DNA of 64,000 nucleotides. Origin: Halogeometricum rufum. Lineage in GTDB: Archaea; Halobacteriota; Halobacteria; Halobacteriales; Haloferacaceae. The DNA lies in assembly GCF_900112175.1 (NCBI RefSeq), contig NZ_FOYT01000002.1:496001-560000 (forward strand), given 5' to 3'. Numbering within the stretch: the first letter of the stretch is position 1; each line of letters opens with the position of its first letter. Positions 27,355 through 30,348 of the stretch are shown here, piece by piece. A program made the translations under genes and the position numbers. The notes beneath the pieces are model-generated. The model was not told where the DNA came from, searched no databases, and worked only from the letters and a program-made list of their open reading frames with translations.

Positions 27355-28641
27355 TTATGAGGGGCCGCTCGGGCGTCGCTCACCCGCCGACCCGCCCGAC
27401 GGCCCGTCACGCTCGGAGTCCGACGGTTCGTCCATGTGGTAGCCGACGACGGCCGTGACGAGACTCGCGGCGGCCAGCGTGCCGAGTGCCGGCGCGAACG
27501 TCCCGGTGCGGTCGTAGACGAAGCCGACGGTGAACGGCCCGAGGAAGCCGCCGACTTCCCCGACGGTGAATATCAGCCCCGTCGCGACGGCGGTGAGGCG
27601 CGGTCCGATACCGTCCATCTCTATCGGAATCGCCCGGACGAGCGGTGCCAATCCGCCGATGGCGAAGACGCCGACGAGGAGGAGCGACGCCGACAGCGTC
27701 CACAGCGAGGTACCGACGACCAGTCCCAGCAGTCCGAGCGTCCCGGCGACGCCGCAACCGACTATCGGGAGTCGACGCGTCGAGAGGCGGTCCGAGAGCG
27801 CGGGGACGCCGACGATGCCGAGCACGCGGACGAGGACGAACAGGCTCGTCAGCGTCCCCGCCAGCGCCGGCGTCATGCCGCGCGTCTCCAGAATCGTCGC
27901 GAGCCAGTTCGACAGGCCGTGACTGATGAACAGCCGCATCGTGCCGACGACCACCAGCAGCAACAGGCCGTAGTGGGTGAACACCGAGCGGAGGTCGCTC
28001 GCTATCGACGCCCGCGCGAACGTCTGGTCTCCGTCGTCCGCGCCGAACCGCTCGACGCGACCCCACAGCGCCCACGACGCGACGACCCACAGGAGGGCGA
28101 ACCCGACGACGAGGACGCCGCCGTAGCGGAAGAACTGCCGCCACCCGGCCCCGAACTGGCCGACGAGTGGCCGCGCGACGGCGAACACCGTCGCGCTCCC
28201 GAGCGTCGCGCCCACCGTGTAGACGGACGACACCGTCCCCGCGCGTTCGGCCGGGAACAGGTCGGAGACCAGTTTCGGCAGGCCGAAGGTGACGGCGGTG
28301 CCGCCGACGCCGAGGAGGAGCGTCGGCGCCAGAACGGAGGCGAACCCGGTGGCGAACCCCCGGATGAGGTGCGCGACGCCGACGACGAACAGGCCCGCAC
28401 CGAGCGCTCGCCGCGCACCCAACCGGTCGATGACGAGGCCCGACAGGAGCGAGAGGGGGATGTAGCTCAGTTGCACCGCGCCGGTGACGACTCCGGCCTC
28501 GGTGCCGGACAGCCCCAACTCCTCGATGACCGGCACGAGGAACGCCGCGAGCGAGAACCACGAGAACGTGAAGCAGAAGTAGCCGGCGCTGGCGAGGACG
28601 AGCAGGACGTACGACTCCGCCGAGACGCCGTCGTCGGTCAT
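27355..28641 (-). CDS. Major facilitator superfamily transporter
   Basis: 428 residues with twelve predicted helices. The loop between helices 2 and 3 reads GLVIDRLGARRALG (about 62-75), a version of the MFS motif G-x3-D-R-x-G-R-R. A matching ALSDRLSTRRLPIVG occurs in the second half. An acidic, Gly/Ser-rich tail ends the protein. The substrate cannot be inferred. It sits at the left border of the AT-rich island, and its upstream region lies next to the duplicated tfs tail. Confidence 0.9.
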   Translation of the reverse strand: MTDDGVSAESYVLLVLASAGYFCFTFSWFSLAAFLVPVIEELGLSGTEAGVVTGAVQLSYIPLSLLSGLVIDRLGARRALGAGLFVVGVAHLIRGFATGFASVLAPTLLLGVGGTAVTFGLPKLVSDLFPAERAGTVSSVYTVGATLGSATVFAVARPLVGQFGAGWRQFFRYGGVLVVGFALLWVVASWALWGRVERFGADDGDQTFARASIASDLRSVFTHYGLLLLVVVGTMRLFISHGLSNWLATILETRGMTPALAGTLTSLFVLVRVLGIVGVPALSDRLSTRRLPIVGCGVAGTLGLLGLVVGTSLWTLSASLLLVGVFAIGGLAPLVRAIPIEMDGIGPRLTAVATGLIFTVGEVGGFLGPFTVGFVYDRTGTFAPALGTLAAASLVTAVVGYHMDEPSDSERDGPSGGSAGERRPSGPS

Positions 28642-28728: not shown

Positions 28729-28774
28729 TCAGTTATACCCGCGCCACCGCCGTCCGCAGTTCTTGGACTTGGAA
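28729..28774 (-). pseudogene. Decayed copy of the tfs 3' end (left att-like repeat)
   Basis: These 46 bases match 30025-30070, the end of tfs, at 41 positions. Translated on the minus strand they read SKSKNCGRRWRGYN followed by TGA, against FKCKNCGRRWRGYN in the intact gene. One zinc cysteine is changed, and no frame continues upstream. It is a gene-tail fragment, not a working gene. Confidence 0.85.
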
Positions 28775-28887
28775 GATTGCGGCTCAGAGGGGTTTGCTTA
28801 TGATAGATTCGAGCGAAAGACGGAGCTAATCTCGTTAGCGAACCCCCGCGAAGTCGAGCCAAGCAAAAAATCGTGTAGTGTCGGACT

Positions 28888-29262
28888 TCAGGTTTGCTTG
28901 TACCAGACCTTGCTTCCGATATGTCCGGTGTAATCTGCAATCTCAGCTTTCACGTAACTTCGGAGTTCGTCAAGGCCCATTGCGTTGACCTTCTCGTCGG
29001 GTAAGTCTCCGAACATCCGAATTACGGTTCTCGCGTGCTCCTTCGTATCAAGGACCCACATCTCGCCCTCAATCGTGGAGCCGATGATTTGGCCCTCCTC
29101 CTTCTTCTGGACCTCATCTGAGTCGTGAAGGCCGTTCAGGACCATTCTGGTATAGTCGGTTGATGAGTCGATTTCTTCCGCTATCTCAGCGGCACGAAAC
29201 CACTCATCCTCGCTCTCAACGTATTCAATGACTCTCTCAGCGACAGTTGTTGTAGTTGACAT
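28888..29262 (-). CDS. Island-borne winged-helix DNA-binding protein
   Basis: 124 residues from the ATG at 29262. Residues 5-60 form a winged helix (ERVIEYVESEDEWFRAAEIA, then TRMVLNGLHDSDEV). The C-terminal half has VIRMFGDLPDEKVNAMGLDE and ends IGSKVWYKQT. Its codon use is much less GC-biased than the neighbours, as in haloviral and plasmid genes. It may control the element it lies on. No partner gene is adjacent. Confidence 0.8.
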   Translation of the reverse strand: MSTTTTVAERVIEYVESEDEWFRAAEIAEEIDSSTDYTRMVLNGLHDSDEVQKKEEGQIIGSTIEGEMWVLDTKEHARTVIRMFGDLPDEKVNAMGLDELRSYVKAEIADYTGHIGSKVWYKQT

Positions 29263-29302
29263 TCTTGGCGGTGGGTGCCGACTATTCCCAGTACCTCGGA
29301 CT

Positions 29303-29581
29303 ACTTTCACCGGGACCAAAGCACAGAAATACCATCCATGCCAAGGCAGAGGTATCCCGAGGCAGGGCAATCCCCTGTCGGCGGGTAGGGGCAATCGGCC
29401 TGCGTGAACCGTTCTGTGTAGGAGCCGAGTGGTTCGCGCAGGGCGGTTCACCCTTCATTTCCGTTGTTACTGATTCGTCATAGCATGTTGCTCGGAAACA
29501 CGTCTGTGCACTACTTAACGTTTTCGCCGCCAGAATGTCCCAAAATGGGGGGTTTAACTGTAATCAAAGCACGGTGAAAGT
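29303..29581. repeat. Inverted 10-mers with shared CAAAGCAC motif inside the island
   Basis: ACTTTCACCG (29303-29312) is the exact complement of CGGTGAAAGT (29572-29581). Both lie next to a directly repeated CAAAGCAC (29317-29324 and 29565-29572). They bound about 260 bases without a recognisable gene and could be end sequences or protein-binding sites. Confidence 0.55.
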
Positions 29582-29589
29582 GGGTTGCT

Positions 29590-29700
29590 ATGAACGATAA
29601 TCGCATTACATCGGAGGGTTATACAGTCGAAACACAGGTATATTCCTCGTTAGAAAGGGGGTATAGTCAATTTCGGTTACGATTTGTTGTTTGCTTATAA
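29590..29700 (+). CDS. Possible 36-aa small ORF in the island
   Basis: ATG at 29590 and TAA at 29698-29700 give a 36-residue peptide starting MNDNRITSEGYTVETQVYSS. It directly follows the inverted repeat. No clear SD is present. It is a plausible small protein in an AT-rich island, but chance cannot be excluded. Confidence 0.25.
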   Translation: MNDNRITSEGYTVETQVYSSLERGYSQFRLRFVVCL

Positions 29701-29807
29701 AGGTATAATGGGGGTAGAAGTCTGACAACTCTGGCAGAGTCCCGAAACGCTCACTCGACATTACTACTCAACATATACGAACAGCCGACTAACTGCCTCG
29801 TCGTTGC

Positions 29808-29942
29808 ATGAGCGACGGCACCCCCCATTCCACCGAGGCATCCTCCATCTGGTCTACGAAGCCGAAATGGGGCACCTTCCCTGCGATATACCGGCTCCCC
29901 GGTGTCTCCCCAGTATCCCATACTACCGTATTCTATGTGTAG
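29808..29942 (+). CDS. Possible 44-aa small ORF in the island
   Basis: ATG at 29808 and TAG at 29940-29942, starting MSDGTPHSTEASSIWSTKPK. A TATA-like ACATATACG lies about 32 bases upstream, consistent with a short-leader transcript. The acidic, Ser/Thr-rich start looks haloarchaeal, but there is no homology evidence. Confidence 0.3.
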   Translation: MSDGTPHSTEASSIWSTKPKWGTFPAIYRLPGVSPVSHTTVFYV

Positions 29943-30024
29943 AGTTCACTGATGCAATCCTGCCAGCAAATCTACGGACTTCGGAAAATCGAATCCGGCG
30001 ATAACAGTCCTTAAAAAGTCTGTA

Positions 30025-30348
30025 TCAGTTGTAGCCGCGCCACCGCCGCCCGCAGTTCTTGCACTTGAAAAAGCGCGTCGGCGGTTCGTCGGCCGACCCG
30101 GTCTGTTTGATGGTGTACCACGCCTCGCCGTGGCCGCACTCCTCGCAGGTCACGTCCGTCGCCGTCGGTTTCCCCTCGAAGTCCGCGCCCTCCTCCGTCT
30201 CGATGACGTCCGAGTCGTCCTGCGCTTCGGTCGAGACGAACTCCGCGGCGCGGTCTGTGTCCTGTTCCTGCGTCGCGCCGCAACTCGAACAGACCATCTC
30301 GCCGTCCTGATTGTGCATCATCGAACCGCACTCGTCGCAGAACTGCAT
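30025..30348 (-). CDS. tfs: Transcription factor S (TFIIS-like RNA polymerase cleavage factor)
   Basis: 107 residues from the ATG at 30348. The N-terminal zinc ribbon uses Cys 4, 7, 20 and 23, and the C-terminal ribbon Cys 68, 71, 96 and 99. The catalytic loop reads GSADEPPT (84-91), with Asp87-Glu88 in place and the usual preceding Arg replaced by Gly. TFS rescues backtracked RNA polymerase by stimulating RNA cleavage. Its last 46 bases form the right-hand repeat of the AT-rich island. Confidence 0.94.
   Translation of the reverse strand: MQFCDECGSMMHNQDGEMVCSSCGATQEQDTDRAAEFVSTEAQDDSDVIETEEGADFEGKPTATDVTCEECGHGEAWYTIKQTGSADEPPTRFFKCKNCGRRWRGYN

Follow-up and report, generated by a model that had tools for sequence, protein, structure and literature searches.

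CIMEs and the integrase-less genomic islands of bacteria consist of cargo flanked by att sites, without an integrase of its own. In archaea, integration at the 3' ends of protein-coding genes was mapped for 14 of 68 thaumarchaeal elements, including one in a Zn-finger gene that receives a new stop codon from the element (PMC6563490, Krupovic et al. 2019). Tyrosine recombinases of archaea have been reviewed (PMC8371274), and the few protein-gene sites given there do not include tfs, the gene for transcription factor S. We analysed a 64-kb stretch of the Halogeometricum rufum genome (the window, whose positions are used below) in which the end of tfs is repeated on the far side of an AT-rich island.

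The target gene is intact. It encodes 107 aa with matches to PF01096 (E=4e-17) and PF02150 (30025-30348, minus strand), and its operon position is conserved in relatives. Its last codons and stop (30025-30070, minus strand) recur at a spacing of 1,296 bp at 28729-28774, also on the minus strand, with 41/46 identities, and a repeat finder extended the similarity to 53 nt at 85%. The homology starts at the first base of the tfs stop codon and reaches as far as the FFKC codons; by a binomial estimate, the chance of an equal match within 4 kb is ~1e-10. Across the whole H. rufum genome, a degenerate tfs-tail pattern matched twice, both times at the island, and most of 392 Halobacteriales genomes contain a single match. 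A sequence-only reading of this DNA had proposed a 3'-end repeat some 1.3 kb apart, an intact gene keeping one copy and the loss of a zinc Cys codon from the outer copy. All three hold; in the outer copy TCC indeed replaces TGC.

The island itself (28775-30024) is 1.25 kb long, with a GC content of 49-54% against 68-72% in the flanking DNA and 68-70% in the genome. Its only credible cargo gene encodes a putative winged-helix protein of 124 aa (28888-29262, minus strand), whose family matches are weak: DUF7343 in Pfam at E=0.001, under the cut-off, and phrog_2440 ("transcriptional regulator") at E=0.003. This protein is rare in the order and absent from the one sister-genus genome searched, and it had no relative in the viral contigs or plasmid collection searched. 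Its structure prediction was too poor for use (mean pLDDT 45.5), and the sole match to a solved structure, 8fje, spans 27 residues and was set aside. No integrase homology was detected between the tail copies. The island also contains no Cas1 (casposase), no SNJ2-type integrase and no structural genes of an SNJ2-like pleolipovirus, and the winged-helix ORF alone has family support. Thus, the drop in GC and the missing integrase were both as first described, and the winged-helix gene stands as putative; two micro-ORFs proposed with it gained no support from family or homology searches. At the protein level, 292 other genomes held no second copy of the island.

Do other elements use the same site? 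Most genomes with two close tfs tails on the same strand have an insert between them. Looking for other cargo between tfs tails, a check suggested by the sequence-only reading, we found eight two-tail elements besides the window island, six of them with integrases. The inserts of G020 (5.4 kb), G147 (6.1 kb) and G216 (4.1 kb, Halarchaeum acidiphilum) have a tyrosine integrase gene beside the outer tail copy; all three integrases belong to one clade, and PF00589 was found in the G216 protein. When named genomes were searched with the Halarchaeum integrase, it recovered, besides itself, only proteins of Haloglomus halophilum (NZ_CP101166) and Halovenus salina (NZ_CP112972), both located at tfs with a displaced tail. 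Further searches revealed no member beyond these five; hits in G476 and G493 most probably belong, judging from identity and contig position, to these two species again. The five integrases are 71-90% identical to one another and group together with a support of 1.0; other haloarchaeal integrases show ~38% identity to them or less. All five elements, 3.6-6.1 kb long, have an intact tfs on one side and a displaced tail of the gene on the other. Complete members therefore have a common layout, with the clade integrase next to the outer site and the intact gene and displaced tail as flanks. The G216 and G020 elements have a weak match to the DUF1424 Rep, below the Pfam cut-off. The G216 Rep had no match among plasmid records, and a search of viral contigs for the integrase and outer arm found none.

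The remaining tfs tails are more varied. Besides a tyrosine integrase, the 7.8-kb insert of G264 (L084 3436-11313) encodes an MjaI-type restriction-modification pair and a serine resolvase. Its integrase is only 14-16% identical to the clade and unrelated to it, so two lineages at the least make use of tfs. The inserts of G304 (1.6 kb, no recognised integrase) and G370 (1.9 kb, integrase-less) each lie between two tfs tails. In the ~2.7 kb that follow tfs, G051 has an AT-rich island (L048) with a SacI-type restriction enzyme and a D12 methyltransferase, and with no recognisable outer tail. A second tail in G248 was not counted as an element: it lies 22.9 kb away, has three mismatches and seems to be a chance match or an old remnant. 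The AT-rich tfs tails of G106, G317 and G346 have no low-GC island directly behind them. Similar ORFs of ~72 aa, membrane-like, adjoin the tfs tail in G014 (L036 15210-15432) and in the G020 element (L083 8866-9081); G014 has no second tfs tail and may keep the stub of a former element. The window island and its integrase-bearing relatives show that mobile DNA of haloarchaea docks repeatedly at this protein-coding gene.

How does the window island relate to these elements? We built profiles of the element arms from five other elements only and scored them across the window. The outer arm (28774-28805, plus strand, 32 nt), which reads AGATTGCGGCTCAGAGGGGTTTGCTTAT inward from the displaced tail, scored 37.0 and ranked first of 127,938 positions, the next best scoring 1.4; none of 20,000 shuffles at fixed register equalled it. 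Its segment TTGGAAGATTGCGGCTCAGAGGGG is identical to Haloglomus at 23/24 positions, and TTGSAAGAKTGYGGCTMAG, the outer arm expected of the family, directly adjoins the displaced tail. The inner arm (29945-30024, plus strand) also ranked first, of 127,958 positions, with a score of 19.8 and a runner-up at 8.4. It carries GATGCAATC at 29951-29959, 74 nt from the tfs stop; in the five others this motif lies at 62-83 nt, and 60-85 nt is the range that defines the family. The window island thus has the family arm sequences at both of its ends, and it occupies the family location, between an intact tfs and a displaced tail with homology running from the stop codon. A pattern joining tail and outer arm matched only G000 and G020 among 170 genomes of the host family and only G147 and G216 among 26 genomes of another host family, and a reversed-pattern control gave no matches; across these 196 genomes the junction is confined to tfs-tail elements. 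At the inner side, the window end is near-identical to one in G051 (~80-82% identity to the tfs-proximal end of its tfs island), and G051 has the inner motif in common with G370. Since the window and G051 islands differ in cargo, one end is common to quite different cargo. Between the arms, nothing convincing is common to the window island and the complete elements. At 29689-29704, GTTTGCTTATAAAGGT is identical at 16/16 nt to the outer arm of the Halovenus element; this may be a promoter box or the trace of an earlier element end, and we dropped it as family evidence, as it resembles a common archaeal promoter box.

We also compared these loci with empty sites. Within the host family, the gene order of tfs, a variable stretch, a hydrolase, pspA and further genes has largely been kept. 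The other species of the genus, four in number, each have a single tfs tail and lack the island. Three of the four have after tfs a gene that reads, in translation, as glycosidase-like (L031-L033), at the place where the window has an MFS transporter gene beyond the outer tail (27355-28641); the MFS homologues of these three species are located elsewhere in their genomes. Because the sisters have a different gene after tfs and their MFS gene elsewhere, none of them provides a base-exact empty site for the window. Removal of the element and one tail from G264, G216 and G370 left an unbroken alignment to the empty sites of relatives over 0.5-1.2 kb. Relatives lacking the island, to which the sequence-only reading had pointed as a check, have the single tail expected of an empty site.

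Comparison with sister empty sites also gave the direction of exchange. Out of 45 positions, the outer and gene-side tails matched at 42 and 30 in G020, 43 and 31-33 in G147, 39-40 and 30-33 in G264, and 41 and 36 in G216. Thus, wherever sister genomes permit this comparison, complete elements have supplied the gene-side tail, and the outer one is what the host had before. The switch points in these comparisons suggest that crossover took place within the Lys-Cys codons, ~34-43 nt from where the stop codon starts, which would correspond to ~30058-30067 in the window. In the window, by contrast with the AT-rich gene-side tails of G020 or G264, the tail on the gene side is like that of the host (44/45 to a sister), and the outer tail has drifted slightly (41/45 to the tail of sister G003). 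G304, in which no integrase was recognised either, has this pattern too.

The island is very probably an integrated, integrase-less member of a group of small haloarchaeal integrative elements whose attachment site is the 3' end of tfs. The repeated tail, the drop in GC, the junction pattern and the inner end in common with G051 all speak for it. The proposal of site-specific integration at the tail of a protein-coding gene is accordingly supported by the clade-integrase elements at tfs, the family arms at both island ends and the empty sites. To it our comparison adds the cognate integrase clade, the arms themselves, the swapping of cargo behind a common end and the absence of the clade from the genome. 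A tyrosine integrase of the clade would have recombined the circular element with the conserved Lys-Cys codons of tfs, and the element's own copy would have replaced the last ~12 codons and the stop, leaving tfs functional. The window copy would later have lost its integrase by internal deletion or cargo replacement, or else came in as a non-autonomous element on which an integrase acted in trans; in its present form, with one putative winged-helix gene, it presumably cannot move unaided. Three observations count against this explanation: a clade integrase is absent from both island and genome, the gene-side tail is not element-like as it is in G020, G147 and G264, and the sister species offer no base-exact empty site for the window. 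Given the host-like tail, the explanation needs either gene conversion at a later time or an attP tail that came from within the genus.

Whether the island is a decayed remnant or a living mini-element is a question within this explanation. No clade integrase lies beside the outer site or anywhere in the H. rufum genome, where the best match has 33% identity, so the window copy is at most a non-autonomous or decayed member. If alive, it would keep its att and arm ends as a substrate and be moved in trans by the integrase of a co-resident element, like a CIME. The two ends are intact in sequence and position, and other integrase-less two-tail islands exist (G304 and G370, the latter with the inner motif it has in common with G051). 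However, the genome offers no cognate integrase, the protein-level search yielded no second copy, and the core of the outer site has C-to-G changes relative to most elements. We regard a living mini-element as possible but somewhat doubtful, and lean towards a deletion remnant.

Two further readings dispense with an element altogether. A local tandem duplication or illegitimate recombination could alone yield a 46-nt repeat of the tfs tail, with AT-rich DNA entering independently between the copies, but it leaves unexplained both why the island side of each copy is homologous to elements with an integrase and why the repeat starts exactly at the stop codon, as in other elements; we consider it very improbable. 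Other haloarchaeal genes with tfs-like N-termini exist, so that the outer copy might be what is left of a former tfs paralog. Yet its similarity stops at the FFKC codons and gives way to the element arm, and in no relative examined does the outer fragment continue as a full tfs paralog or does a paralog occupy that place, which makes this origin less credible still. Both readings are rejected because neither explains the arms.

A different arrangement was seen at four loci. In G036 (L093 4413-10033), G214 (L091/L156), G236 (L097/L155) and G009 (L154 8398-9101), tfs is truncated at or shortly before the end of the FFKC codons, and a complete tfs lies tail-to-tail beside the truncated copy. The complete copies cluster with one another across two families (support 0.94), and the truncated copies of G214 and G236 group with relatives from their own host families. 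The displaced tail of G036 is found 5.3 kb off and is oriented as expected. In the stretches read at these loci, we identified no integrase. These loci suggest a separate type of element that breaks the host tfs and brings a complete replacement. Taken jointly, and tentatively, the tfs tail might be an order-wide hot spot, targeted by two or more unrelated lineages of tyrosine integrases, with the window island as a trans-mobilised mini-element and this further type as one that swaps the whole gene. Mobile DNA would then pass an RNA polymerase cleavage factor, in part or as a whole, from genus to genus.

With every integration, the zinc-ribbon tail at the C-terminus of a transcription factor is rewritten, which makes the att site a piece of protein on which selection acts. 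Since the site collects restriction-modification cargo (MjaI-type in G264, SacI-type in G051), screening of tfs tails offers a cheap route to small defence-carrying or plasmid-like haloarchaeal elements. The tfs elements add a recurrent protein-coding attachment site to an archaeal mobile-element biology in which tRNA targets dominate, along with a cognate integrase clade and diagnostic end sequences that expose integrase-less relatives.

Like the tfs elements, the thaumarchaeal elements integrate at protein-gene ends and supply the last codons and stop; they belong to a different archaeal phylum, the targets listed for them do not name tfs, and their att sites tend to be short (13 bp for the Zn-finger gene; PMC6563490), compared with ~46 nt at tfs. 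The nearest named relatives of the clade are the SNJ2-type integrases of the pleolipoviruses SNJ2 and HHPV4, likewise tyrosine integrases of haloarchaeal elements, but these are only 24-30% identical to it. SNJ2 uses a tRNA end instead of the tfs tail (PMC8371274), and its genome measures 17 kb against the 3.6-6.1 kb of the clade elements. The likeness to small haloarchaeal plasmids with a DUF1424 Rep is limited to the weak matches in G216 and G020, and the window island has no Rep. With bacterial CIMEs and integrase-less islands the window island has the att-flanked layout in common, and it differs from them in its archaeal host and its tfs target. In the literature searched, which mostly lay outside subscription papers, tfs was nowhere described as an attachment site in archaea. 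Mechanisms of this kind are known; what appears to be new is the target, together with the integrase clade and the integrase-less relatives.
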